Shown in pieces: positions 2,181 through 41,992 of a DNA stretch of 64,000 nucleotides (the first letter of the stretch is position 1; every line of letters starts with the position of its first letter). The DNA is from Desulfosporosinus youngiae DSM 17734 (GTDB lineage: Bacteria; Bacillota; Desulfitobacteriia; Desulfitobacteriales; Desulfitobacteriaceae). Location: assembly GCF_000244895.1 (NCBI RefSeq), contig NZ_CM001441.1, positions 4,554,198 through 4,618,197 of the forward strand. Reading direction: 5' to 3'. The notes under the pieces are model-generated. The model searched no databases. It was not told the DNA's origin and saw only the letters and a program-made list of their open reading frames with translations. The translations under genes were made by a program, and so were the position numbers.

Positions 2181-2450
2181 TCAACGTATTCTATCGGTTC
2201 TATTCTGCAAATCAATAATAATGACCTCAGACCCTACTTTTTTAACGGTTTGCCATGGAATTACGAGATGGTCACGTTCACGATCCCCTTTAGAACCCCA
2301 AAAGCCCGAAAAACCGCCTCGGGAAGTTAGAATAATCGCTTCAACAGATCCGTTCGCAGAAATATCAAGATCTGCATCCCCAACCAATCCCAGTTTTGCT
2401 CCATCAAAGAGATTAATGATTTCTTTTCCGCCAAGATCACTTAAAAGCAT
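2181..2450 (-). CDS. YlmC/YmxH-family PRC-barrel sporulation protein
   Basis: Small 89-residue protein beginning MLLSDLGGKEIINLFDGAKL, with GDADLDI in the middle and a hydrophobic IPWQTVKKVG segment. This is the PRC-barrel-like YlmC/YmxH family found only in spore formers, commonly between the M16 peptidase gene and dap/dpa genes, as here. Biochemical function is unknown. The ATG at 2450 has a GAGAGG ribosome site. It is followed by a terminator. Confidence 0.85.
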   Translation of the reverse strand: MLLSDLGGKEIINLFDGAKLGLVGDADLDISANGSVEAIILTSRGGFSGFWGSKGDRERDHLVIPWQTVKKVGSEVIIIDLQNRTDRIR

Positions 2451-2466
2451 CTAATCCTCTCCCTAC

Positions 2467-2778
2467 TCACTTCCGCAGTCTTATCCATGCCTTTAAAACA
2501 AATGGTTGTAAAATCGCCAATAATAAAGAAATAACGGCTAATGGCTCAACAAAAAATACCGAGTTATTCCACCAATCTTCCGGTATCTTTAAAAAGGAAA
2601 ACAAGAGTTCCAGAGAAAGGTAAATCCCCCCTGCGGTACCCACCAATTGGCTTAAGGCCGCAGCAAGAATATTAGATGAAGGCTGAGATGTCCGCCACAT
2701 CAACCGATATTTTCGTTCGCGAACAGATACAATAATACCCATAACCAGAAGTGTCACCCCAAGGGCTTGCATTTTCAC
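2467..2778 (-). CDS. Small membrane protein of unknown function
   Basis: 103 residues with about three predicted membrane segments: residues 4-20, 37-65 and 77-95. The C-terminus is basic (KAWIRLRK). I do not recognise the family. It lies between dut and the ylmC-like gene on the same strand, 16 bases ahead of the latter, so the two are probably co-transcribed. A strong terminator lies just upstream, after dut, so this pair has its own promoter or depends on readthrough. Confidence 0.65.
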   Translation of the reverse strand: MKMQALGVTLLVMGIIVSVRERKYRLMWRTSQPSSNILAAALSQLVGTAGGIYLSLELLFSFLKIPEDWWNNSVFFVEPLAVISLLLAILQPFVLKAWIRLRK

Positions 2779-2828
2779 TCCTCCTTATGGGGAGTTTATG
2801 ATAAGACAAATTTGCTTAGAACAAAAAC

Positions 2829-2853
2829 ACAGAAGGATTTTATACCCTTCTGT
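2829..2853 (-). terminator. Intrinsic terminator after dut
   Basis: On the minus strand ACAGAAGG pairs perfectly with CCTTCTGT around a nine-base loop and is followed by GTTTTTGTT. It lies about 75 bases past the dut stop. The rest of the 2779-2926 gap shows nothing else. Confidence 0.75.
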
Positions 2854-2926
2854 TTGAAGATCCTTTATATGGTTGAAATAAGTCAACTCACCATACTAAT
2901 CATCGAGTTAACTGCCAGCCAATACT

Positions 2927-3379
2927 TTAAACCCCCGTTGAGCCAAATCCACCTGTTCCCCTAGCAGTTTCTCCAAGTTCCGCGACCTCTTCAAAGACCG
3001 CCTTAAAAATCGGCATGAATACTAATTGAGCTATTCGGTCTCCGGGATTTACTATAATAGCTTTTGGGCCAAGATTTTGGAGCAGTACCTGAATTTCCCC
3101 TCGATAATCGGAATCGATCACTCCTACACCATTTGTCAGCCCAATTCCGTAACGGCTGGCCAGACCACTGCGGGCAAAGACAAGGGCTACTACATGCGGA
3201 CCCGGAAGTTCAATGGCCAGACCCGTTGGAATCTTAACATTCTCTCCAGGATTTACGGTTAATGAGTCTACTAAATCAGCACAGAGATCAACCCCTGCTG
3301 AGGCAGCTGTTGCATAGGCAGGAAGAGCCAATGACTGGTCCCTTACCTTTTTAATTTTTACCCTTATAGAGTCTGACAC
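2927..3379 (-). CDS. dut: dUTP diphosphatase (dUTPase)
   Basis: Trimeric dUTPase; hydrolyses dUTP to dUMP and pyrophosphate. All five family motifs are visible: ASAGVDL (residues 26-32), FARSGLASRYG, NGVGVIDSDYRGEI, DRIAQLVF and the C-terminal RGTGGFGSTG that closes the active site. The 150-residue length is standard. The start codon is GTG at 3377-3379 with a GGGGG ribosome site. It is downstream of the M16 peptidase gene, from which it is separated by a gap holding a perfect inverted repeat. Confidence 0.96.
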   Translation of the reverse strand: MSDSIRVKIKKVRDQSLALPAYATAASAGVDLCADLVDSLTVNPGENVKIPTGLAIELPGPHVVALVFARSGLASRYGIGLTNGVGVIDSDYRGEIQVLLQNLGPKAIIVNPGDRIAQLVFMPIFKAVFEEVAELGETARGTGGFGSTGV

Positions 3380-3412
3380 TTAAGGTCCCCCCAAACTCAA
3401 TGTTCGTGGTTA

Positions 3413-3452
3413 GATAGTCGATATTCTATCCGTACCACGAATATCGACTATC
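3413..3452. repeat. Perfect 14-bp inverted repeat between mlpA and dut
   Basis: GATAGTCGATATTC (3413-3426) and its exact reverse complement (3439-3452) flank a 12-base loop. No T-run follows on the minus strand, so it is not a standard terminator. It could be an operator for a dimeric regulator or an mRNA hairpin in the dut leader. Confidence 0.6.
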
Positions 3453-3510
3453 GGATCTAAGACTGCAAAACTAAACCCAGATATTCGAACGATGATCCTC
3501 AAACCACGAT

Positions 3511-4788
3511 TTACTCCCATCCTGTTTGCTTTAACAAATCAGATAATACCACTTCATGACCAGCAGGCCCTAAGGTCATAATGCTGATTTTATCCTTTTG
3601 CCAAAGGCGCCCAATCAAGCGCAAAACATCCTCTTGAGTTACGTTTTCTAGTTTCTCTACGACTTCCTCCGGCGAAAGCACACGATTGTAGGTCAGTTCT
3701 GTCTTACCCAGACGACTCATCCGACTGCTTACTGCTTCCAAGCCCAGATATAACCCGCCTTTAATTTGAGCTTTTGTTCTTGTCAATTCTTCAAGGCTGA
3801 TTCCCTTTTTCTTCATCTCCATCAATTCTTCGAGAATACATACGATAACTTCCTGAGTGTTTTTCGGGCTCGTTCCCGCATAGATCGCAAATAACCCGGT
3901 GTCAACGTAGGTTGAATGATAAGAATAGACAGAGTAAGCTAATCCGCGCTGTTCCCGGATCTCTTGAAACAAACGAGAGCTCAGTCCACCCCCTAGAATA
4001 TTATTAAATATGTGCATAGCATAGATATCCTCATCATCTTGACCCAGCCCAGGTACTCCCAAGATGATATGCATCTGTTCTGTATCTTTCTTCTGATAAT
4101 ATTCAATGGTATGGCCGTTAGGCGTTTCCTCAAGTACCCTTCGCCCTCCCCGCTTAAAGGTGCCAAAGTGTGGGGAAAGCTTTGCCACAACATCATCATG
4201 CTTTATCTTGCCGGCGACAGAAATCACAACATTATCAGGTGCATAATGCTCGGTCAGAAAATGCATGATTTTATCCCGCCTCAGAGCTCTGATACTCTCT
4301 TCTGTTCCTAATATTGGCTTGCCAAGGGGATGATCATTCCATACACGTTCTGAAAAGACATCATGGATTAACTCGTCCGGAGAATCTTCATACATTTTAA
4401 TCTCTTCTATGACAACATTCTTTTCTTTTTCAATTTCCTTTTCATCAAAAAGGGAACTGAAAAACATATCACTTAGAACATCAATGGCAAGATCCAAGTC
4501 CTCATCAAGTATTTTAGCATAATAGCAAGTATATTCCTTGGTCGTGAACGCATTCAACTGACCGCCAACCGCCTCAAGTGACTCTGCTAAAACACGAGCG
4601 CTTCGATGTTCCGTTCCTTTGAAAAACATGTGCTCGATAAAGTGAGAAATCCCCTCAAATCCTTCACGTTCATCCCGAGACCCGGCTCCCACCCATATTC
4701 CTATGGCGGCCGAACGAACATGGTCGAGTTCTTCTGTAATAATCCTAACTCCGTTAGGAAGCAGCGTCTTTTTATACAATAAATTCAC
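3511..4788 (-). CDS. mlpA: M16-family zinc peptidase (MlpA/YmxG type)
   Basis: Processing-peptidase-like zinc protease. The inverted zinc motif HxxEH appears as HFIEHMFFKG (about residues 48-57), with the downstream glutamate in EEIKMYEDSPDE. The C-terminal half carries the second M16 domain including GGGLSSRLFQEIREQRGLAYSVYS. Length 425 matches the Firmicute family encoded beside pnp, dut and dacF. The annotated GTG (4788) has a poor ribosome site; an in-frame TTG three codons downstream sits better relative to AGAGGGA. Substrates are unknown. Confidence 0.92.
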   Translation of the reverse strand: MNLLYKKTLLPNGVRIITEELDHVRSAAIGIWVGAGSRDEREGFEGISHFIEHMFFKGTEHRSARVLAESLEAVGGQLNAFTTKEYTCYYAKILDEDLDLAIDVLSDMFFSSLFDEKEIEKEKNVVIEEIKMYEDSPDELIHDVFSERVWNDHPLGKPILGTEESIRALRRDKIMHFLTEHYAPDNVVISVAGKIKHDDVVAKLSPHFGTFKRGGRRVLEETPNGHTIEYYQKKDTEQMHIILGVPGLGQDDEDIYAMHIFNNILGGGLSSRLFQEIREQRGLAYSVYSYHSTYVDTGLFAIYAGTSPKNTQEVIVCILEELMEMKKKGISLEELTRTKAQIKGGLYLGLEAVSSRMSRLGKTELTYNRVLSPEEVVEKLENVTQEDVLRLIGRLWQKDKISIMTLGPAGHEVVLSDLLKQTGWE

Positions 4789-14201: not shown

Positions 14202-16100
14202 TTAGAGGTCTTTGGGTTTTACAATAAACCACCCCTGCATTTCCTGGTGAAGAGCCGAGCAGAAGTTAGTGCAATAGAAGGGATAAACTCCCGCCTTATC
14301 CGCAACAAATTCAAATTTTATGGTTTCACCCGGTTGTGCTTCCGCATTAAGGTCATACATGCAAATTCCGAAGCCATGGGTAATATCTTCATCGAAATCC
14401 GTATTGGTTAAATACCAGGTCACATGATCTCCTTCATTGACCTCCACATGATCCGGGTAATAACGGCTGCGGAAGCCCATCTGATAGACCGTGACCTGAT
14501 TGCCGTCCCGTTCGACGCGGGCGTTTTCCTTTTCATAAACAGCCCCCGGCCGGTTGGGATCCTTGTCAAATACTTCCCAGGTCGTGATTTTATCCGCTTT
14601 GATCATCTGGGCAAAATGAGGCTCGGGGTCTGTGGGAACATCCATCAAGATTTTCATTTTATCTGTTGTCAGATCGATCAGCTGGGCACTTTCCGGATGA
14701 GATGGCCCAACGGACAAGAATTTGTCCTTGGCCAGCTTATTCAGGGAGACCAAATACTTGCCGTCGGGATCGACGGTATCCCCCTCGGCGGCACACAAGT
14801 GACCCGGGCAATAATGAACCGGGGTAATATCAACGACTTCAAAGGTATCCAGACTCCATTTAGCAATAGTACTGTCAATAAACAAAGTAGTATAGGCATA
14901 GCCGTTGCCATCAAATTGGGTATGCAAGGGCCCTAAGCCCACCGGCACTTCAGTCACTCTTACTTTCTCATAATTGACAATCGGGAAGCCCCGCTCTTCG
15001 CCCTGGAAGTCTTTGTTTTCAATACATTCCTTAAATTTCTCAAAGCTGAATACGGTAGCTACCGGAGCAACTTTGCCGTTGGCCACGATATATTTGCCAT
15101 CCGGGGTTACATCGACGCCATGGGGGCTCTTCATCGCCGGGATCAAATAGATGGAACCGGGAACATCAAGGGGATTGATCATTTTGGCTCCATCAACCAT
15201 TTCATATTTGCCGTCCTTGGCGGCTTGCTCAAGCAATTTCCAGTTGACAGCGACCACGTAGTCCATCTCCCGCTGAGAAGCATTGACCTCCAGCAGTTCA
15301 TAAGCTTCTTCGGTATTATAGGTTGTCAGGAAGGCCCAGCCTTCGCTGTCCAGCTTGCCGGCATCTGATAAATCAAAGGACCAGGGGGGCATGAGCACTT
15401 CCCACCCCACACTCATCTCACCTTCATTGGGATCAATCGCTACCGCCGCCAAGACGCAGTTGTAATCTTTCGATAAATTCTCAATGGGGGAATAGGTCCC
15501 GTAAGGTATCGGTCCGGCGAAGCGGGAACCCAGCATAAAGTATTCGGAGTTCGGTGTCATAAACACAGCGCTGTGGGGCCCGTAAATATTGGGAATATCT
15601 AAAATCTGGCTGGTTTTGAAAGAATCCAGATCAATGCGGGCCGCCCTGCTGTTGGCATTATCATTGACAAAGAGCCAGCGCCCGTCATAGTCGCCGCCTG
15701 TCTCACTTAAAGCAGGGTGATGAACATCCCCCCAGCTCCATTTTCCCAGCATTTCCTTGGATTCCGTGGTCCAGCCGTACCCTACAGCGGACTCGGGGGT
15801 AAATACAGGAATGGTTCTGATGCGCCGCATGGAGGGTACCCCATAAACAAAGACACTGCCGGAATGACCGCCTGAGGCAAACATATAATACTCATCCAAC
15901 TGGCCGGGCGGCACATAGGTCTTTAAAGCCGCTTGCACCACATCATCCGGCACCCCGTCTACGGATATCTTTTTTCCACCGATGGCAGCGGACTCTTCCG
16001 CTTTGGGATTAAGCTGAGACGATAAGAAAACGGCTAGTATCAAGCCCACCAACAGCCCCGCCAGGGACAATGCAATTTTTTTAAATAGTCCTTTTTCCAC
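14202..16100 (-). CDS. nosZ: Nitrous oxide reductase, Sec-exported (clade II type)
   Basis: Reduces N2O to N2 at a CuZ centre fed by a CuA site. The N-terminus is a single hydrophobic segment (residues 8-29) with no twin-arginine motif, so export is by Sec and the protein may stay membrane-anchored. CuZ ligand regions seen are SGGHSG (about 78), DVHHPALSE (about 127), GPHSAVF, SPHGVD, GPLHTQFD and EPHFAQM. The C-terminal cupredoxin domain has the CuA motif CTNFCSALHQEM (about residues 608-619). 632 residues is normal. It is the central gene of an operon with its own quinol-oxidising complex. Confidence 0.97.
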   Translation of the reverse strand: MEKGLFKKIALSLAGLLVGLILAVFLSSQLNPKAEESAAIGGKKISVDGVPDDVVQAALKTYVPPGQLDEYYMFASGGHSGSVFVYGVPSMRRIRTIPVFTPESAVGYGWTTESKEMLGKWSWGDVHHPALSETGGDYDGRWLFVNDNANSRAARIDLDSFKTSQILDIPNIYGPHSAVFMTPNSEYFMLGSRFAGPIPYGTYSPIENLSKDYNCVLAAVAIDPNEGEMSVGWEVLMPPWSFDLSDAGKLDSEGWAFLTTYNTEEAYELLEVNASQREMDYVVAVNWKLLEQAAKDGKYEMVDGAKMINPLDVPGSIYLIPAMKSPHGVDVTPDGKYIVANGKVAPVATVFSFEKFKECIENKDFQGEERGFPIVNYEKVRVTEVPVGLGPLHTQFDGNGYAYTTLFIDSTIAKWSLDTFEVVDITPVHYCPGHLCAAEGDTVDPDGKYLVSLNKLAKDKFLSVGPSHPESAQLIDLTTDKMKILMDVPTDPEPHFAQMIKADKITTWEVFDKDPNRPGAVYEKENARVERDGNQVTVYQMGFRSRYYPDHVEVNEGDHVTWYLTNTDFDEDITHGFGICMYDLNAEAQPGETIKFEFVADKAGVYPFYCTNFCSALHQEMQGWFIVKPKDL

Positions 16101-16152
16101 TTGCTAAAAACCTCCCTGTCCATTTGCATTACTCTATCGCGGATATCACTCT

Positions 16153-16695
16153 TCACTCTGAGCTATCCCTAGTGTCGTCCTTCTTTTGCTCTTCACTGTC
16201 GGATTGCCGGGCAGCCTCTCCGCCCGCTTCAGTTAATAACTCGAGAACCTGAGCCTTTTCCTCATCGCTAATATCCATTCTGGCGAACATTTCCGCCATT
16301 GTTCCTTCCGGTTCCTGTAAAAACTCCGCAAGAGTCTTCCCAAAACGATCCGGCACATCCCCATAGGCCTTGGTAAGATCAGGCCCTGTCACACCACCGG
16401 CTATTCCGTAATAACTCACTTCATGACACTGAGTACAGCCCTTTTGCAAAAAAAGCTCTCCTCGTTTGGAAGTTTCACCAGCGGCAGCGCCGGGATCGCC
16501 TCTTGGGGTGTCTGCAGACTTCTGGGGCTGCAAGCCGGCCGCATAGACCAGCTCAGCTTCCCGCTCATCCGGCAAAGCATAATTCGGCGCAGCGATGACA
16601 CTCCCTGTTATTCCTACCAAAAAACCCATTCCCAGCCAGATGCAAAAAAATGAAAGCAAGTGAAAGGATGGATTATTCCGCTCTTTTCCCGTCAT
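16153..16695 (-). CDS. Membrane-anchored monohaem cytochrome c of the nos operon
   Basis: 180 residues: N-terminal hydrophobic anchor/signal (about 11-36), one CxxCH haem site (GCTQCH, near residue 86), GITGPDLT-like segment after it with candidate Met ligands MAEMFARM, and a highly charged Ser/Glu/Lys C-terminal tail. The start ATG at 16695 has GGGGGTG upstream. Placed between the cytochrome b genes and nosZ, it is the likely electron donor to the CuA site. Confidence 0.85.
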   Translation of the reverse strand: MTGKERNNPSFHLLSFFCIWLGMGFLVGITGSVIAAPNYALPDEREAELVYAAGLQPQKSADTPRGDPGAAAGETSKRGELFLQKGCTQCHEVSYYGIAGGVTGPDLTKAYGDVPDRFGKTLAEFLQEPEGTMAEMFARMDISDEEKAQVLELLTEAGGEAARQSDSEEQKKDDTRDSSE

Positions 16696-16733
16696 TGATT
16701 CACCCCCCTACCGGTCCAAATTCTAATCCATAA

Positions 16734-17129
16734 CTACACATGCAGGGCAATATAAGTCAAAACCACCATGAGGATCAGTACGATTTCTGCTCCCCAAATC
16801 ACCCATGGCCTCTCTTCAGGCCTGCGGGATGTGCTTCTGTCCAGCCATGGCAATAAGATAACCCCGATAACCAGCAGCGCCGGAATCAGCAACCCCAAAA
16901 GCTGAGGGACAATCTTTAACAGGCCAAAAAGCCACATAAAATACCAATCCGGTTCAATATGAGTCGGGGTCATGACGGGATTGGCCGGGGGACCCAGATC
17001 CTTGGGAATTACTCCGGCCAGAAAAAGAACAACGCCAAAGATACCAAGGGCCACGCTGACTTCAGTGGTTAAATGGTTGGGAAAAAACGGTACCGCATCC
17101 TTATCCAATTCTTTTTTATTGATATCCAT
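16734..17129 (-). CDS. Cytochrome b, C-terminal subunit (subunit IV/PetD-like)
   Basis: 131 residues with three membrane helices, matching subunit IV of b6f-type complexes. The quinol-site PEWY motif appears as EPDWYFMW (about residues 59-66), with the usual Glu position replaced by Asp. It follows the cytochrome b6 gene by 13 bases and has an AGGAGG ribosome site. Together they form the split cytochrome b of a menaquinol-oxidising complex dedicated to the nos operon. Confidence 0.88.
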   Translation of the reverse strand: MDINKKELDKDAVPFFPNHLTTEVSVALGIFGVVLFLAGVIPKDLGPPANPVMTPTHIEPDWYFMWLFGLLKIVPQLLGLLIPALLVIGVILLPWLDRSTSRRPEERPWVIWGAEIVLILMVVLTYIALHV

Positions 17130-17142
17130 TCCTCATCACCTC

Positions 17143-17811
17143 CTACAGTGGACCGGAAATTCCCTGTTTACGGATCATTAAAAAATGAACAATCAGCAAG
17201 CCGATGGTAATGACCGGCAGGATCACGATATGGATAATAAAAAACCGTATCAGCGTATAATCCGTAACCTTGCTTCCGGCCTGTCCCAACAGTAAAAGCT
17301 GATCACCGACGACAGGAATTGACCCCAAGATCTTGGTGCCGATAATTGCCGCCCAGTAGCCTACTTGATCCATAGGCAAGAGATAACCCGTGAAACAAAA
17401 CATAATCACCAAAAGCAGCAGGAATACGCCTACTACCCAATTGAACTGACGGGGCGGCTTGTAGGCGCCGGTAAAAACAACCCGCAAAAAATGCAAAACT
17501 ACCATAACCAGCATCAGGTTGGCCGCAATGTTATGAACCGAACGCAAAGCCTTGCCCATAAAAACCTCATTATTGATAAACATCACGCTCTGATAGGCCC
17601 CTTCCATGGTCGGCTTGTAATAAAAGGCCAGCACGATGCCCGTAACAACCTGAACCAAAAACAACAAAAACGCAATCCCGCCAAAACAGAATATGAAACT
17701 ACGGGCATGCTTAGGGACAGGATGTTCAGCGATTTCTTTAAGCATGTCTTTTACCCCGACCTCTTTAGGCTCAAGCGCCACGCTAAACAACCTCCTCTTG
17801 TACCATGACAT
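17143..17811 (-). CDS. Cytochrome b6-type subunit (N-terminal cytochrome b)
   Basis: 222 residues with four membrane helices and the paired haem-ligand histidines: HNIAANLMLVMVVLH in helix B and HIVILPVITIGLLIVH in helix D. VTGIVLAFYYKP is typical of b6. The extra residues before MLKEIAEHPVPKH are the usual b6 amphipathic start. The gene overlaps the Rieske gene by 29 bases. It should take electrons from menaquinol and pass them to the Rieske protein and cytochromes c. Confidence 0.9.
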   Translation of the reverse strand: MSWYKRRLFSVALEPKEVGVKDMLKEIAEHPVPKHARSFIFCFGGIAFLLFLVQVVTGIVLAFYYKPTMEGAYQSVMFINNEVFMGKALRSVHNIAANLMLVMVVLHFLRVVFTGAYKPPRQFNWVVGVFLLLLVIMFCFTGYLLPMDQVGYWAAIIGTKILGSIPVVGDQLLLLGQAGSKVTDYTLIRFFIIHIVILPVITIGLLIVHFLMIRKQGISGPL

Positions 17812-18229
17812 ACCCCTCTTCCACCCAGGCCTTCAAACGGGTTAAAGGCTTCGGCGGCGGCCCTTCCAGAACATTCCCGTCTTCATCGAATATTCCGCCA
17901 TGACAAGGGCATTCAAAGCGTTTCTCTGCTTCATTCCACATTACAGTACAGCCAAGATGGGTGCAGACCCTGGAAAAGGCTCTATATTCATTGCCCTTTT
18001 TGAAAATCATAGCCGGAAGACCATCATAGACGATTTCTTTGGGCTTCTCCGACAGTTCCCCTTCCTTGAAAATCGCCATTTTCGGAGGAAGGGGCTTTAG
18101 AGCCCCGGGGGGGCTGATCATTTTCCCTACCGCGACTGCCGGAACTCCCACACTTAAAACCAAGGGCACCCCTGTCATGATTCCCAGGAATTTGCGTCTT
18201 GATAGTTCCCCTTTAGGATTGTTCTCCAT
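17783..18229 (-). CDS. Rieske [2Fe-2S] protein, Tat-exported
   Basis: 148 residues. A twin-arginine signal (SRRKFLG, residues 10-16) precedes a hydrophobic segment. The cluster-binding motifs CTHLGC (about 92-97) and CPCHGG (about 111-116) are intact. It overlaps the cytochrome b6 gene downstream and is overlapped by the small membrane protein upstream, so the Rieske/b/subunit IV set is made from one message. Confidence 0.93.
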   Translation of the reverse strand: MENNPKGELSRRKFLGIMTGVPLVLSVGVPAVAVGKMISPPGALKPLPPKMAIFKEGELSEKPKEIVYDGLPAMIFKKGNEYRAFSRVCTHLGCTVMWNEAEKRFECPCHGGIFDEDGNVLEGPPPKPLTRLKAWVEEGYVMVQEEVV

Positions 18230-18446
18230 TTTCCATACCCCCTTTGCGATCCAAAATCAAAACTCTCCATGTATAAACGGAAAAGGCGGCTGCAAAGCAA
18301 ATCAACCCCATAAAAATTACGATCCAATAAGCGTTTCCGGCTGTCCAACTCCTGGCGATCATGAAGGCCAGCGTTATGGCCGCCCATATTCCCAGTGCCA
18401 AAACCGCAAACCCTTCCTTATCCCCTTCTTCATCAAAAAGACTCAT
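18213..18446 (-). CDS. Small two-helix membrane protein of the nos operon
   Basis: 77 residues, with an acidic start (MSLFDEEGDKEG), two membrane helices (about 13-30 and 38-58) and a short charged tail. I do not recognise the family. Its gene overlaps the Rieske gene by 17 bases, so it is probably a small subunit or assembly factor of the bc-type complex. A ribosome site GGGGGAATA lies upstream. Confidence 0.65.
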   Translation of the reverse strand: MSLFDEEGDKEGFAVLALGIWAAITLAFMIARSWTAGNAYWIVIFMGLICFAAAFSVYTWRVLILDRKGGMENGEQS

Positions 18447-18480
18447 CGTTTATTCCCCCATTCCTCCTTAGAACTCCACT

Positions 18481-18825
18481 TCATCTGGGGTAAGCTTCCT
18501 CTAAATAGTGAAGGATCTCTTCTTCCTCTTTCTCTTTCATGAACGCCCCATAGCCCTTCATCAAATCAATAATTTCCGGCCAAGAAGAAGAACCCTGATA
18601 ATTCTGCACAGTATCCGCATCATGACAGGCTGTGCAGGTTGATTGGAAGGTAAGGTATCCTGCTTGCCCTTCAGCCTCCGCCCCTTCCGGCAGCGGAATA
18701 GCATAGGCTGCAAAAAGGGCAAAGCCAATCACCAAACCAATAACAACCATATTAAGCCCTAAAACTTTGCTTAATTTTTCGGCGACCAACCCCCGCAAAT
18801 TATCCAACCTCCTTTGTTTATCCAT
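18481..18825 (-). CDS. Membrane-anchored monohaem cytochrome c
   Basis: Single haem site CTACH near the middle, preceded by one membrane helix (NMVVIGLVIGFALFAAYAI), with a compact domain after it (LMKGYGAFM carries a possible Met ligand). The start is uncertain: ATG at 18825 is one base past the stop of the upstream gene, while TTG at 18798 has a near-perfect AAAGGAGG eight bases upstream and may be the true start. The frame stays open to 18885 inside the upstream gene. First electron-transfer gene after the ABC/DUF4418 genes in the operon. Confidence 0.82.
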   Translation of the reverse strand: MDKQRRLDNLRGLVAEKLSKVLGLNMVVIGLVIGFALFAAYAIPLPEGAEAEGQAGYLTFQSTCTACHDADTVQNYQGSSSWPEIIDLMKGYGAFMKEKEEEEILHYLEEAYPR

Positions 18826-18826
18826 C

Positions 18827-19276
18827 CTAAATGTTCTTCGAAGTCGAACCAGGGATCTTTTCCTGGAAAACCGCAGCCAAGCCAACGATTATGGTCAAGC
18901 CACCCAAGACACAGAGCACTTTAGCGGTGGCATGGCATTCCATCGGGCTCATACAAACTCCGATCCCCTGATTGGTGGGCAGAATAATCACGCCTAAACC
19001 CAAAATCATCAGAACCCCGCCCAAACTTTTCTGAGCAGGAAGGGATTGGTTGAACAGGAAGATTAGAGAGACCAAAACAATGATTATGCCGAAGAATATC
19101 TCCCCTTGACCTGTATAATGACAGCGCATGTGGACCATCTTCCCTGTGTTTAATTCCAGTAAACCTTGACAAACGGGAGCAAGATGAAATGGAGTCAAAA
19201 CGATCAAGAGGCCCAGCGCTGCCCCCAGTCCGCCAAGAACCTTAGCTAATTTTCCGTTTAAAATTTTAACCTTCAT
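18827..19276 (-). CDS. DUF4418-family membrane protein
   Basis: 149 residues with four membrane helices and conserved Cys/His positions in the exported loops: PVCQGL, MVHMRCHYTGQ and GVCMSPMECHATAK. This pattern is that of DUF4418, often encoded beside FtsX/LolD-type ABC transporters, as here. The Cys/Met/His-rich loops could bind metal, such as copper for NosZ; that is inference. It is immediately followed by a cytochrome c gene. Confidence 0.78.
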   Translation of the reverse strand: MKVKILNGKLAKVLGGLGAALGLLIVLTPFHLAPVCQGLLELNTGKMVHMRCHYTGQGEIFFGIIIVLVSLIFLFNQSLPAQKSLGGVLMILGLGVIILPTNQGIGVCMSPMECHATAKVLCVLGGLTIIVGLAAVFQEKIPGSTSKNI

Positions 19277-36655: not shown

Positions 36656-37756
36656 ATGTCAAAAAAATTAAAAACCATGGATGCGGAAACCTTGATGACC
36701 ACACCCATGGAGCCGCTGAAATTTATTGTCAGCGGTCTGCTACCCGAAGGACTGCATGTGCTTGCAGGCTCACCGAAAATTGGCAAGAGCTGGTTAGCCC
36801 TGTGGATCTGCTTACAGGTGGCAAAGGGTGAAAATGTATGGAAATTCGAAACGCTACGAGGCGAAGTCCTGTATCTTTGTTTAGAGGATAGTTTTGCAAG
36901 AATCCAAAGCAGGTTGTTTGAAATTACCGACGAAGCACCGCCTACGCTGCACTTTGCAATCATGAGTGCAACCATTGGCAATGGTTTAGAGCATCAGATT
37001 GAAAGTTTTATTACCGAGCATTCCGACACAGGCTTGATTGTCATTGACACCCTGCAAAAGGTTCGCAAAACAGTGTCAGCAAATGTGAATCCTTATGCCT
37101 CAGATTATGATGACATCAACACACTGAAGCAGATCGCGGACCGTCATCATCTTGCCATCCTGCTCGTACATCATCTTCGAAAAACAAGTGATGCCGATCC
37201 GCTCAATATGATTTCGGGTACCAGCGGTATTGCTGGTGGTGCTGATACAAACTTTGTACTGCAAAAAGACAAGCGAACGGAAAGTACCGCAACGCTCATC
37301 TGCACCGGCAGAGATATCGAGGGACGGGAATTGTTCTTGGAGTTCAACAAGAACAAATTTTTATGGGAGCTGCTGGAACCGATTAAAATGGAGCAGCGGA
37401 TCATACCGGAGGAAATTTTTCTTCTCTGTGATTTGATAAAATCGGCAGGCAGCTTCACTGGGACGGCAACCGAGCTAATAGAAAACTTGAATCTGGATTG
37501 TAGCCCTGCAATTCTGAAGAAGAGAATCATTAGGCATATGGAGCATCTGGGTAGAAACGGCATTCATTATTCCGAGAACAGGACTTTTGAGCGGCGGGAA
37601 TTTACTCTCCGCTATGACGGTAATGACGATATGACGGCAGAATCACGCCCCCAAAACTTGCCGTCTTTGCTGTCAGCACTGTCACAGGACAGTCATCTCG
37701 CCGCCGTTGCCCCCTGTTCGCCCCTGTGTGGCGAGATTAACGGTGGATTGGCATAA
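36656..37756 (+). CDS. RepA-like AAA ATPase of a mobilizable element
   Basis: 366 residues, RecA/DnaB-fold ATPase: Walker A GSPKIGKSW (about 39-47), Walker B LIVIDTLQKV (about 124-133), plus HHLRKT and SGTSGIAGGAD motifs of the plasmid RepA (hexameric helicase) family. C-terminal winged-helix-like region. It is the first of the plus-strand mobilisation genes, divergent from the DUF6076 gene. The start ATG follows AGGAGG. Its role is likely replication of the excised circle. Confidence 0.8.
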   Translation: MSKKLKTMDAETLMTTPMEPLKFIVSGLLPEGLHVLAGSPKIGKSWLALWICLQVAKGENVWKFETLRGEVLYLCLEDSFARIQSRLFEITDEAPPTLHFAIMSATIGNGLEHQIESFITEHSDTGLIVIDTLQKVRKTVSANVNPYASDYDDINTLKQIADRHHLAILLVHHLRKTSDADPLNMISGTSGIAGGADTNFVLQKDKRTESTATLICTGRDIEGRELFLEFNKNKFLWELLEPIKMEQRIIPEEIFLLCDLIKSAGSFTGTATELIENLNLDCSPAILKKRIIRHMEHLGRNGIHYSENRTFERREFTLRYDGNDDMTAESRPQNLPSLLSALSQDSHLAAVAPCSPLCGEINGGLA

Positions 37757-38075: not shown

Positions 38076-38381
38076 ATGAAAAAGAAGCCCTTTGCCTTTC
38101 GCATCAGCGAAAGCACCTATCAAACCCTGAAACGAAAAGCCAATCGTGGCAGGGTTACCATGACGGAATTTTTAGAACGAGCCATAACCGATAAGGAAAT
38201 CGTTTTGGTAGACGGTATTCAGGAGCTTATCAGTGAGCTGAAAGCCATCGGCAGAAATCTTAATCAGCTTACCACTCTTGCCAATATGGGAAAAGTGGAT
38301 GCCGTTTATCTTGCCGAAACAAAGGCGCAGTTAAGTGGTATCTATGAAAAACTCTCTGCACTTTGCGAGGTGAACCGGTAA
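38076..38381 (+). CDS. mobC: MobC-like relaxosome accessory protein
   Basis: 101 residues: an N-terminal ribbon-helix-helix-like start (MKKKPFAFRISESTYQTLKRKA) and the MobC-family signature ELKAIGRNLNQLTTLAN. It helps the relaxase open oriT DNA. GGAAAGG precedes the ATG at 38076 (an in-frame ATG at 38067 is too close to the ribosome site). Its stop overlaps the relaxase start by one base. Confidence 0.85.
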   Translation: MKKKPFAFRISESTYQTLKRKANRGRVTMTEFLERAITDKEIVLVDGIQELISELKAIGRNLNQLTTLANMGKVDAVYLAETKAQLSGIYEKLSALCEVNR

Positions 38382-39763
38382 TGGCAACGGTCAACTTCAT
38401 CCCCTGTAAAAAGCAAAATGCCTTCTCCATGCGAAATGAAATCGAATATATTTTGCAGGATTTCAAGGTGTGCATCGAACCGGAGAAATTCAATTGTGAC
38501 CACACCGTCAACTACCAAACCTATTCCGAGTGTGCAGATAAGACAGGCTGTATCCGCTTAATCTCCGGCAAGGACTGCTGTCCCGAAACAGCCTTCCAAG
38601 AATTCATGGCAACCAAGAACAGCTTTAAAAAGGCTGACCAAACCATGTTCTATCATTACGACCAAGCCTTCAAGGACGGCGAAACCATTTCACCCAAAAC
38701 CGCACATGAGATTGCTGTTAAATTTGCGGAGGATAATTATCCCGATTATGAAGTGGTCATCGCCACCCATGTGGACAACGAACATCTGCATTCTCACTTT
38801 ATTATCAACTCGGTCAGCTTTAAAACAGGCAAAAAATTACACCAGGGCCCCAAAACACTACTAAAACTCCGGGCATATTCCGACCGAATTTGTCGGCAAT
38901 ATGGGCTGACCACCCTTGAGCCATACAACGGCGGTAAATCGAAAAGCCTTGCCTCTCGGGAATACCGTGCCGCCGCCAAGGGGCAAAGTTGGAAGTTTTC
39001 ATTGATGAACGCAATTGATACGGCGATGAAAATCAGTGGCACAAAAGCAGAGTTTATCAAGAATATGGAGCAACAAGATTACGCGGTAAAATGGACAGAG
39101 AACAGAAAATATATCACCTATACCTGCCCCAACACCATGTCCTGCCGGGATTTGAAGCTCCATGACAACCGCTATTTAAAGGAGATGATGGAGCGTGAAT
39201 TTGAGTTTAGAAGAATTGAAGCAACGGAACGCAGGCTCGCAGCCAGTCGACCCGATTCCCCAGCAGCCATTGCAGAACAGCCCGTCTTGTCCTCTGACAC
39301 AGGAGAAGCTGGACAACCTGTTCTACAATCAAGGACTGATTTGGGATGGAATCGAGAACTTGGAGAAACAGCAGAAAACCTTACAACAGCAGCTCCACAG
39401 CATCAAAATACAACTGGACAATCTTCCTGCGAGGTCGGAGCTGGAGCAAAGCAGCAAGATCCTGTTGCAGATACAGCAGACGGTGTCACCGGCTGGGAAT
39501 CAGAAAGAGAAGCATTTTTCTCTGCCGAAGCTGCGGCTGCCGCACTTGATATGGACACCGCTGTGGGTGATAATCCCTTTGACCTTGCTGGCATTGGCGG
39601 CAGCGTGGTTCAGCTGGGGCGCGCTTTGGAACGGCTGGACAACCCTGTTCCCCTAAAGGATGCCTCCACAAAACCACCGCAGAATACCGGCAGAAGGAAA
39701 AAATTAGCTATCGGTCAAAAGGAAGATGACCATAGCGGACACGATTTTGAAATGAAGATGTAA
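38381..39763 (+). CDS. MOBP-type relaxase/mobilisation nuclease
   Basis: 460 residues. The N-terminal 260 residues form the relaxase domain, with the metal-binding three-His motif HVDNEHLHSHFIINS (about 130-144) and an early active-site Tyr region (NYQTYSE). The C-terminal 180 residues are low-complexity Ala/Glu/Gln-rich and coincide with a second overlapping frame (39195-39656). GAGGTG precedes the ATG at 38381. Nicks oriT and pilots the strand during conjugative mobilisation. Confidence 0.87.
   Translation: MATVNFIPCKKQNAFSMRNEIEYILQDFKVCIEPEKFNCDHTVNYQTYSECADKTGCIRLISGKDCCPETAFQEFMATKNSFKKADQTMFYHYDQAFKDGETISPKTAHEIAVKFAEDNYPDYEVVIATHVDNEHLHSHFIINSVSFKTGKKLHQGPKTLLKLRAYSDRICRQYGLTTLEPYNGGKSKSLASREYRAAAKGQSWKFSLMNAIDTAMKISGTKAEFIKNMEQQDYAVKWTENRKYITYTCPNTMSCRDLKLHDNRYLKEMMEREFEFRRIEATERRLAASRPDSPAAIAEQPVLSSDTGEAGQPVLQSRTDLGWNRELGETAENLTTAAPQHQNTTGQSSCEVGAGAKQQDPVADTADGVTGWESEREAFFSAEAAAAALDMDTAVGDNPFDLAGIGGSVVQLGRALERLDNPVPLKDASTKPPQNTGRRKKLAIGQKEDDHSGHDFEMKM
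39195..39656 (+). CDS. MobB-like membrane protein encoded inside the relaxase gene
   Basis: 153 residues in the +1-type frame relative to the relaxase, starting at GTG with AAAGGAG about ten bases upstream. It has a coiled-coil segment (LEKQQKTLQQQLHSIKIQL), a Pro-rich stretch and a C-terminal membrane helix (LWVIIPLTLLALAAAWFSW). The relaxase frame over the same DNA is low-complexity, as expected when the second frame is the constrained one. ColE1 and RSF1010 have membrane MobB proteins overlapping mobA in the same way. Confidence 0.6.
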   Translation: MNLSLEELKQRNAGSQPVDPIPQQPLQNSPSCPLTQEKLDNLFYNQGLIWDGIENLEKQQKTLQQQLHSIKIQLDNLPARSELEQSSKILLQIQQTVSPAGNQKEKHFSLPKLRLPHLIWTPLWVIIPLTLLALAAAWFSWGALWNGWTTLFP

Positions 39764-39775
39764 AGGAGATGCGAT

Positions 39776-40069
39776 ATGACAAACGAGAAATTAGCGGCAC
39801 AGCATTATCTGAAAACCAATATCCTCGGCGCTTACGAAACCGCCGATATCATTTGGCAAAGCGACAGCGAGGGTACCTCTCACCGCACCTTTGCAGACAG
39901 CTTTGTTTACACGGATGAAACCTCCCATACCATTGAACGGGATATGGTGGTGGAGGACAGAGTGTTCCGGGTGCATTCTGTGTTCCCCGTAAAAAACGCC
40001 TCTACCCCCACAAAAAAGATGCTTTCAGTGATTGAAAACGACCTCGAAAAAGCGCTTAAAAATGCTTGA
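39776..40069 (+). CDS. Small protein of the mobilizable element
   Basis: 97 residues, mixed alpha/beta, no signal or membrane segment (NEKLAAQHYLKTNILGAYET at the start). AAAGGAG precedes the ATG. It lies between the relaxase and recombinase genes, a position usually taken by small accessory genes in this class of element. Family not recognised. Confidence 0.6.
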   Translation: MTNEKLAAQHYLKTNILGAYETADIIWQSDSEGTSHRTFADSFVYTDETSHTIERDMVVEDRVFRVHSVFPVKNASTPTKKMLSVIENDLEKALKNA

Positions 40070-40152: not shown

Positions 40153-41853
40153 ATGGCAAACAACGAAAAATATACCATACTCTACGGCAGACTAAGCCAA
40201 GAAGATGACCGTGAGGGTGAGAGCAACAGCATCCAAAATCAGCGGCTGATTCTCACCAAGTACGCAGAGGAAAAGGGCTTTGGCAATATTCGTTTTCTTT
40301 TCGATGACGGTTTCAGCGGAACAAACTTCAATCGTCCTTCGTGGAATGAGATTATGGAGCTGATTGAAAGCGGACAGGTGGAAACCTTGATTGTCAAGGA
40401 TATGAGCCGACTCGGCAGGGATTATCTGCAAACCGGCTTTCTCATGGAGCATACCTTCCCCAACAACAATGTTCGTTTCATTGCGATCAATGATGCGGTG
40501 GACACGCTCTACGGCGATAACGACTTTGCTCCGTTCCGGAACTTATTTAACGATTTTTATGCGAAAGACTGCAGCAAAAAGATTCGGTCGGTGAAGAAAG
40601 CACAGGCTGAGCGCGGGGAACGGGTTGGGACAAGACCACCCTATGGGTACAAAAAAGACGAGAGCAATCCCAAACAGATTGTTCCCGATCCAGAAGCCGC
40701 CGAAGTGGTCAAGCACATTTTTAAGCTGTGTGCCGAGGGCAGGGGCCCCAAGCAAATCGCAAGGCAACTCACGGGAGAACAGGTGGTAAATCCAAGCAAT
40801 TACTATTTTAATCAGACCGGAGTGGCATTGACGAACTTGGATACCACCAGGCCCTACAGATGGCGAGATAACTCCATCGTCAATATTTTGGATGATGAAA
40901 CTTATCTGGGGCACACGGTCAGCATGAAGCACACCACAGCATCTTACAAAAACAAAAAGCAGATCATCCGCCCGAAATCCGAATGGCTAAGGTTTGAAAA
41001 CACCCATGAGGGCATCATCGACCAAGAAATCTGGGATATTGCCCATGCGGTTCGAGAGCACAAAAAGCGTCCGAGAAAAAACATGGAGAACCCTAACCCT
41101 TACTCAGGACTTGTATTCTGCGCCGATTGCGGAAAGCCTTTGGTGCTACACCGTGCCCACACCATGGACGAGAGTAAAAACAATTTCGCCTGCTCCACCT
41201 ACAAGCAGTATGGCAAAGAAACCTGCTCCGCCCATTACATCAGGGAGAGTCAGCTTGCGGCGGTAATTTTGGATGATCTAAAGCGTGTCACCCACTTTGC
41301 AAGGCAAGATGAAGTGCTGTTTGCAGAGTGCATCAACCGCAAAAACACCGCCGATACGAGGAAAGAAATTACCGCGCTGCAAAAAGAGCTGGAGGGTATG
41401 CGAAAAAGGGATTTGGAGCTTACGGCACTTTTTAAGCGCCTCTACGAGGACAATGTGTTGGGTCGTATCCCCGATGAGCATTACCGAACCCTGTCCGATG
41501 AGTACACCGTAGAGCAAAAAGCCTTACGGGAACGCATGCCAAAGACTGAAGTCAGAATGGATAAGCTCAAAAACTCCCTTACCAACGTGGACAGGTTTAT
41601 TGAAAAGGCGAAAAAGTATACCGACCTTACCGAACTGACTCCGGAACTGCTTCGGATGTTTATTGCAAAAGTTGTGGTGGGCGAAAAGGCTGAGAAATAC
41701 TCCCGCACTGCTCCGCAGGATATTTGGATTCACTACCGTGACATTGGGATGCTGAATGATGTCAAAGAGGAATTCGATATTCCATCCATGGAAGAGTTCT
41801 ACAGAATGGATGATGAAATGATATTTGATGATGAGCTGCCAGCCGCAATTTAA
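40153..41853 (+). CDS. Large serine recombinase (TnpX/Tn4451-like)
   Basis: 566 residues: N-terminal resolvase domain with catalytic Ser in YGRLSQEDD (about residue 15) and RLGRDYLQTG, then a recombinase domain (GYKKDESNPKQIVPDPEAA), a zinc ribbon (FCADCGKPL ... CSTYKQ ... CSAHYI, about 317-363), a coiled coil and a DUF4368-like C-terminus. Catalyses site-specific integration and excision of the element. AAGGAGG precedes the ATG. A short hairpin (TTGTGG/CCACAA with inner CGGTA/TACCG) lies in the 83-base gap before it. Confidence 0.93.
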   Translation: MANNEKYTILYGRLSQEDDREGESNSIQNQRLILTKYAEEKGFGNIRFLFDDGFSGTNFNRPSWNEIMELIESGQVETLIVKDMSRLGRDYLQTGFLMEHTFPNNNVRFIAINDAVDTLYGDNDFAPFRNLFNDFYAKDCSKKIRSVKKAQAERGERVGTRPPYGYKKDESNPKQIVPDPEAAEVVKHIFKLCAEGRGPKQIARQLTGEQVVNPSNYYFNQTGVALTNLDTTRPYRWRDNSIVNILDDETYLGHTVSMKHTTASYKNKKQIIRPKSEWLRFENTHEGIIDQEIWDIAHAVREHKKRPRKNMENPNPYSGLVFCADCGKPLVLHRAHTMDESKNNFACSTYKQYGKETCSAHYIRESQLAAVILDDLKRVTHFARQDEVLFAECINRKNTADTRKEITALQKELEGMRKRDLELTALFKRLYEDNVLGRIPDEHYRTLSDEYTVEQKALRERMPKTEVRMDKLKNSLTNVDRFIEKAKKYTDLTELTPELLRMFIAKVVVGEKAEKYSRTAPQDIWIHYRDIGMLNDVKEEFDIPSMEEFYRMDDEMIFDDELPAAI

Positions 41854-41931: not shown

Positions 41932-41961
41932 AACACCCGCTTAAAAGCAAGAGTGTTTTTT
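41932..41961 (+). terminator. Probable second terminator at the right end of the mobile region
   Basis: AACAC and GTGTT arms with an inner GCTT/AAGC stem are followed by TTTTTCTTT. It lies just before the host-like lipoprotein gene and probably close to the right boundary of the mobile element. Confidence 0.5.
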
Positions 41962-41992
41962 CTTTAGACCTAATCATAAGGAGGTTTTATTT

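Follow-up and report, generated by a model that had tools for sequence, protein, structure and literature searches.

A probable MobB-like gene nested within a relaxase gene of a putative integrative mobilizable element of Desulfosporosinus youngiae

The mobilizable element and its genes

The window (the whole 64,000-nucleotide stretch of Desulfosporosinus youngiae DSM 17734 DNA analysed here) contains a set of mobilization and integration genes on the forward strand. These include an AAA_25 ATPase gene (36656-37756; PF13481, E = 6.5e-25) upstream of mobC, mobC itself, encoding a MobC/NikA-like relaxosome accessory protein (38076-38381; PF21983, E = 1.6e-13, and PF05713, E = 1.1e-8), a gene for a relaxase of the MobA/VirD2 type (38381-39763; PF03432, E = 6.2e-34), an ORF for a 97-aa protein without family match downstream of the relaxase (39776-40069), and a gene for a large serine recombinase (40153-41853; PF07508, PF00239, PF14287, and PF13408). 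The 460-aa relaxase comprises, according to its family match and to alignment A3, a catalytic domain, a linker, and a conserved tail, and the linker is encoded over a second, nested ORF, which is the main subject of this study.

Homology with other loci, as judged by blastn, stops just beyond the recombinase gene, at 41936-41966, in seven of eight loci (the eighth, L008, is cut by a contig end at the element's right end), and this position is therefore taken as the right end of the shared element. Since it carries a relaxase of its own (PF03432) together with an integrase, the large serine recombinase, the element is taken to be a probable integrative mobilizable element (IME). Reading the ORFs of 22-37 kb by eye, with a family scan of a minority of them, brought no T4SS gene to light. 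A search of the host genome with the coupling-protein family PF02534 gave no match inside the window and matches just at 1.549 Mb, about 3 Mb away, in two adjacent pieces in different frames (G000:C1:1548506-1549472); any helper resident in this genome may therefore be missing or defective. To the left of the element, at 14202-18885, a nitrous-oxide-reductase-like gene and cytochrome b/Rieske/cytochrome c-like genes were recognised by eye.

The nested open reading frame

In the ORF list, a 153-codon ORF with a GTG start occupies positions 39195-39656 of the forward strand, in the +1 frame of the relaxase gene. The GTG is preceded at a distance of 10 nt by a ribosome-binding site, AAAGGAG (39178-39184), and a TGA at 39186-39188, two codons before the GTG in the nested frame, closes the frame upstream. 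Start codon, ribosome-binding site, coordinates, and frame all agree exactly with those given in an earlier note written from the sequence alone, and the predicted product has 153 aa.

The note had also described this frame as encoding a coiled coil and, at the C-terminus, a membrane helix. The helix is predicted here too, with a Kyte-Doolittle maximum of 2.1 in the C-terminal hydrophobic segment and a model helix over residues 123-151 (39561-39647). The AlphaFold2 model of the nested protein, built with 8 sequences and of low confidence (mean pLDDT 60.3), contains helices at residues 5-13, 36-75, 78-97, and 123-151, a pattern in keeping with a short helix at the N-terminus, a predicted coiled coil (residues 36-97, at 39300-39485), and the membrane helix. 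The short helix falls on a conserved N-terminal motif, LSLEELKQRN (residues 3-12, at 39201-39230). Related nested proteins share a common layout, with an N-terminal motif resembling LSxEELKxRN separated by a spacer from a predicted coiled coil, after which come a stretch of basic residues and the C-terminal membrane helix. Four residues (E7, L8, N12, and G101) are invariant among 22 nested proteins, and Kyte-Doolittle maxima near the C-terminus range from 1.7 to 3.0 in the 40 loci passing a filter set at 1.6. Because basic residues precede the C-terminal helix, we infer a tail-anchored, N-in topology. Comparison of the window protein with Pfam, NCBIfam, and PHROG models gave no confident family and only weak sub-threshold matches, the best being DUF2730 (E = 0.0039; 17.7 bits, below the cut-off of 24.9), and 22 aligned nested proteins gave just isolated weak matches in NCBIfam.

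The relaxase frame over the same bases had been described as low-complexity, and it does look linker-like. In the AlphaFold2 model of the relaxase, no secondary structure is assigned to residues 289-372; because this model is poor throughout (mean pLDDT 42.4), the weak amino-acid constraint on the stretch, described below, is the better evidence for a linker.

Selection on the two frames

Codon-level conservation of both frames had been proposed as a check. Possible and observed single-base changes in codon alignments were classed as nonsynonymous (N) or synonymous (S) in each frame, with the relaxase frame written first and the nested frame second, so that constraint on the nested protein is expressed as dNN/dNS and constraint on the relaxase as dNN/dSN (95% limits are given in brackets). 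In the window set of seven sequences, the region upstream of the overlap gives a relaxase dNN/dSN of 0.07 (0.05-0.11) and, for the empty +1 frame, a dNN/dNS of 0.76 (0.50-1.18). Within the overlap, the nested dNN/dNS is 0.29 (0.19-0.40) and the relaxase value is 0.75 (0.49-1.14). From upstream to overlap, dSN falls from 0.516 to 0.131 and dNS rises from 0.050 to 0.346.

The same pattern extends to the eight other sets, which come from other branches; several sets consist of two or three sequences, and some have saturated synonymous rates. The nested dNN/dNS lies between 0.19 and 0.39 in all nine sets, its upper 95% limit being below 1 in each (the widest is 0.91), and the relaxase dNN/dSN is 0.27-1.63 in the overlap versus 0.06-0.11 upstream. 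Some constraint on the relaxase persists in the overlap: it is clear in set 2b (0.32, 0.12-0.70), and values of 0.76 (0.59-0.95) and 0.66 (0.51-0.87) were obtained in two mixed sets. Constraint on the relaxase returns in the tail downstream of the overlap, with values of 0.08-0.38 in five sets. Mixed sets 2 and 3 were split after their result had been seen, and the values from before the split are given here along with those from after it; before it, nested constraint was weaker, at 0.72 (0.54-0.92) and 0.80 (0.60-1.09), because the members carry different C-terminal modules. The upstream control of set 5 is itself slightly below 1 (0.80, 0.66-0.97). At the level of sequence, these values indicate that purifying selection acts on the protein encoded by the nested frame and that, within the overlap, this frame is the more constrained of the two.

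Conservation of the start site

The start signal of the nested frame is likewise conserved. Among the 43 long-type loci in which the motif could be placed, ATG, GTG, or TTG stands at the nested start in 41 (one more locus is unreadable) and AGGAG precedes it in 39, and the relaxase residue encoded over the start varies among Y, R, H, L, and N. Neither the start codon nor AGGAG was found in any of 11 short relaxases, of which 7 match a looser ribosome-site pattern such as AAGGA.

Chance was assessed by resampling synonymous codons with the relaxase protein held fixed. The nested frame of the window stays open in 1.15% of such resamplings, and for many members taken alone the result is weak (P up to 0.48); the family as a whole gives stronger evidence. 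Over 41 loci selected for an open frame, which leave out L030 because of Ns and include L148, a chance frame in a distant relaxase, the +1 frame contains 0 stops in 6754 overlap codons versus 105.8 expected.

Distribution of the nested gene

A relaxase-domain scan of the genome collection returned 19 loci, comprising 8 close homologues and 11 of short type. The close homologues have relaxases 91-95% identical to the query and nested proteins 75-88% identical, with the nested frame open in all eight. An intact relaxase over a nested frame interrupted by stops, the pattern named beforehand as refuting, therefore occurs in 0 of 8 close homologues; among the 42 long-type loci described below, it occurs in one (L057). 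The reverse arrangement was seen in L004, where the relaxase frame stops early at a nonsense codon (5023) and the nested frame continues, representing either a natural example of a nested frame outliving its relaxase frame or an assembly error. The nested protein of L004 is identical to that of L010, and intact copies exist. The 11 short relaxases are 43-48% identical, have ORFs of 346-362 codons from stop to stop, and are without both about 100 aa of the linker and the nested frame. ORFs resembling the 97-aa protein of the window (39776-40069) come after the short relaxases in L014, L015, L016, L020, and L022.

Searches with nested-protein profiles gave matches in 18 of 394 genomes of one order, in 7 of 391 from the class to which that order belongs, and in 5 of 299 from the phylum of the window, weak and false matches included. 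All true relatives among these matches are encoded within a relaxase ORF, in some cases one that is broken or cut by a contig end, and no free-standing copy of the nested gene was found by the nested-profile searches. The remaining matches were weak and to unrelated or unconfirmed proteins, and L043-L047, L058, and L064 were dropped as having no relaxase. Relatives with as little as 24-38% identity to the window protein retain the motif, the coil, and the membrane helix. In viral contigs, profile A2 found one locus, and the window nested protein and relaxase found none; plasmid and phage collections searched with the nested proteins gave no match.

A search led by the relaxase alone (profile A3, E <= 1e-25) was chosen to lessen the bias towards the nested frame. 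It matched 66 of 197 genomes of the order at 147 places, 90 of which were examined (30 loci returned by the search and 60 further regions fetched); its score cut and ranking lean towards the clade because A3 was built from 11 nested-gene and 2 short relaxases. Of the top 21 places (at least 332 bits), 20 have a +1 ORF with a C-terminal hydrophobic helix at the same site, the twenty-first, L073, being a broken copy. In total, 125 non-redundant relaxase ORFs were tabulated, and the 53 scoring at least 300 bits divide into 11 of short and 42 of long type, the latter drawn from the relaxase search (20), the nested-profile searches (15), and the first scan (6), together with the window.

The nested frame is intact in 40 of the 42 long-type relaxases, and in the intact loci it is +1 to the relaxase. 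This count includes L025, the same locus as L004, which fails the filter because its relaxase ends early and was counted intact. The exceptions are L057, whose nested frame is stopped with the relaxase open (it passes the filter on the part of the frame after the stop and was counted broken), and L037, in which the frames are disturbed. Below 300 bits, 72 relaxase ORFs yielded a nested ORF in two only, both contig-cut members of the same clade; two broken members, L048 and L073, also score below 300 bits and lie outside the 42. The Bacillota elements with the nested gene span at least four taxonomic families. In L031 and L033, the N-terminal parts of the nested proteins are near-identical and the membrane segments and relaxase tails differ, which probably reflects recombination inside the overlap with both frames kept.

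Comparison with known mobilization systems

Nested mobilization genes are known from Gram-negative plasmids such as ColE1 and RSF1010, and the earlier note had drawn both parallels. In ColE1, mbeB was indeed located in the +1 frame inside the relaxase ORF, mbeA. Like the window gene, it encodes one hydrophobic segment, and the plasmid is typed as mobilizable; unlike it, MbeB has this segment in the middle of the protein (about residue 89 of 172) and not at the C-terminus, and ColE1 is a replicating enterobacterial plasmid, whereas the window holds an integrated Firmicute element. The window gene has the defining arrangement of a MobB/MbeB-type nested gene, being a complete gene within the relaxase gene in another frame. 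It falls outside the MbeB family by sequence, since ColE1 MbeB matches PF04837 (MbeB_N) at 3.6e-22 and the window protein gives no match at E <= 1; hhalign between the two proteins returned a probability of 0.2%, from single sequences and with low power. On this evidence, the window gene resembles MobB/MbeB in arrangement but not MbeB in sequence.

The RSF1010 parallel holds as well: mobB lies within mobA/repB in a different frame and is needed for mobilization (PMC2200642). The window gene is likened to this mobB of RSF1010/R1162 by arrangement alone, and the RSF1010 relaxase, unlike that of the window, is fused to a primase.

Related arrangements occur on other plasmids. The Staphylococcus aureus plasmid SAP084A has the same order of mobC, relaxase, and a coil/membrane-helix protein (DUF334 by annotation; its gene goes by the name MobB), in the +1 frame with an overlap of 35 nt. 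That protein differs from the nested protein of the window in being encoded almost wholly outside the relaxase gene and in having two membrane helices, and hhalign gave a probability below 1% for the pair (single sequences, low power). The plasmid NZ_CP104069.1 of Alicyclobacillus fastidiosus encodes a 163-aa coil protein with a C-terminal membrane helix (WP_268008835.1) in the +1 frame, fully within a relaxase ORF (relaxase locus 2426-3796; nested frame 3159-3653); its relaxase belongs to a different branch from that of the window, and hhalign found no similarity between the two nested proteins. In the PLSDB gene table, which is incomplete by its own description, this nested frame is listed as a hypothetical protein and the relaxase is unlisted. 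The Waltera intestinalis plasmid LC817946.1 carries an unannotated +1 ORF (3282-3860) for a coil protein with a C-terminal membrane helix, whose ATG stands behind AAGGAG over KEELEHE, what looks like the same relaxase motif as in the window clade. Unlike the window gene, it overlaps the last 323 nt of the relaxase gene and runs beyond it, and its relaxase lies outside the 55-row clade described below; the extent of its overlap is thus intermediate.

Searches of the open-access literature turned up no account of such a gene inside a Firmicute relaxase gene, and one may exist in subscription papers. The terms 'MobB', 'overlap', and 'membrane protein' are absent from an IME review (PMC5704250), and passages of a paper on a serine-recombinase IME family (PMC12904643) mention no nested gene.

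Proposed function and alternative explanations

The nested ORF is very probably a real, hitherto unlabelled protein-coding gene, and its product may help the element move between cells. The earlier note had suggested that a Firmicute element with a serine recombinase uses MobB/MbeB-style overprinting, and the selection data and the intact frame in 40 of 42 long-type relaxases support this at the level of sequence. The reading that we hold probable is that a MobB-like gene is overprinted in the +1 frame of the IME relaxase gene and encodes a tail-anchored coiled-coil protein that brings relaxosome, membrane, and helper coupling protein together. Ribosomes would initiate again within the relaxase message, at the GTG behind AAAGGAG, yielding a 153-aa protein with its N-terminal motif, coiled coil, and basic stretch in the cytosol and its membrane helix at the extreme C-terminus. 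Probably as a coiled-coil oligomer, this protein would become part of the relaxosome (relaxase, MobC, and nicked oriT), keep it at the membrane, and assist in offering it to a helper conjugative system through that system's coupling protein, while the relaxase would read the overlap as a loosely constrained linker joining its catalytic domain to its conserved tail.

A helper's coupling protein is invoked because the element, as far as its ORFs were read, has no recognisable T4SS gene. The MobB of RSF1010 associates with the membrane. A role in bringing the relaxosome to the membrane and the coupling protein is proposed because RSF1010 MobB is both nested and needed for mobilization, and because relaxase transport signals are said, in the title of a 2007 paper by Parker and Meyer (cited in PMC3297438), to require MobB. 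The assignment of a MobB-like function follows position and architecture, since hhalign indicated no kinship with MbeB or the staphylococcal protein. Counting against it, elements with short relaxases manage without the nested gene.

It is also conceivable, though we consider it rather unlikely, that the nested protein is real and does a different job, such as entry or surface exclusion, shielding of the host's membrane, or regulation of the helper system. A small ColE1 gene adjoining mbeB is annotated as 'MbeD family mobilization/exclusion protein', and the present tests bear on coding and not on function. However, no free-standing copy appeared in the searches made, the ORF and the linker are jointly absent from short relaxases, and other relaxases have, at the same place, a following or overlapping gene for a protein with a coil and membrane helices; the nested gene is therefore tied to the relaxase.

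Far less probable is a frameshift fusion, in which ribosomes shift from the relaxase into the +1 frame and produce a membrane-anchored relaxase. The intact nested frames are all +1, where a +1 (or -2) shift leads, and an anchor fused to the relaxase would be a simple tether; however, a shift requires neither the start codon nor the AGGAG that are kept in 41 and 39 of 43 loci, and it has little room upstream of the start because of the in-frame TGA two codons before the GTG. A frameshift fusion was accordingly rejected on the conservation of the start codon and ribosome-binding site.

That no protein is made, the open +1 frame being a by-product of biased composition or an RNA/DNA signal in the linker, is the least credible explanation: the weak synonymous shuffle of many members speaks for it, but chance, composition, and an RNA-level signal are rejected by the dN/dS pattern and the conserved start site, as substitutions track nested codons, remote relatives keep the protein's motif, coil, and membrane helix, the start and ribosome-binding site are kept, and dNN/dNS is near 1 in none of the nine split sets, though one mixed set reached 0.80 (0.60-1.09).

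The nested protein is a candidate for bringing the DNA of elements without a transfer machine of their own to the machine of a helper. Beside the nested mob genes of Gram-negative plasmids, it points to a sequence-unrelated family in integrated elements of Bacillota, for which the searched libraries contain no model. The locus also offers a clean natural case of overlapping-gene evolution, in which constraint falls on one frame and far less on the other, and in which both seem to have been lost jointly. It further suggests that annotation easily drops a transfer gene or, as in one plasmid gene table, leaves out the relaxase instead.

Evolutionary history

The tree comprises 75 rows, namely 69 of the 125 tabulated relaxases and six rows from the plasmid and phage collections, with low-scoring rows picked by hand; some of its joins rest on long branches and may be false. 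The nested-gene clade contains 55 rows (support 98/97). Within it, the 11 short relaxases group together (100/100) and adjoin nested-gene rows (100/99), and the simplest reading is therefore that the nested gene and the relaxase linker were lost together, once.

Membrane proteins, most of them partly coiled, also accompany some relaxases beyond this clade at the corresponding place, and the degree of overlap varies. The overlapping cases described here are all +1, with overlaps of 23 nt, 35 nt, 323 nt, or the complete gene (the Alicyclobacillus plasmid and ColE1). The 23-nt overlap belongs to a Clostridioides difficile plasmid whose protein has another architecture, with five hydrophobic segments, and a Fusobacterium plasmid has a membrane protein at the corresponding place with no overlap. 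By scan, most of the distant relaxases examined from the same genomes have no such protein; the arrangement is therefore not universal.

We put forward, tentatively and with more doubt than conviction, that the usual direction of overprinting is reversed here, the membrane gene being the frame under selection and the relaxase sequence a loose spacer. An operon of mobC, mobA, and mobB with a shorter +1 overlap, of the kind seen in the plasmids with 23, 35, or 323 nt (the last having a similar-looking start site), might have had its mobB swallowed by a 3' extension of the relaxase gene, the spacer later being lost together with mobB. If this were true, hidden mobB genes of unrelated sequence may be common in mobilizable elements and would have been overlooked, given the tendency of annotation to retain a single frame at each locus. 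Two distant relaxases (L084 and L150) have +1 ORFs of 295 and 353 aa that overlap by 248 and 263 nt, respectively, and contain strong hydrophobic segments.
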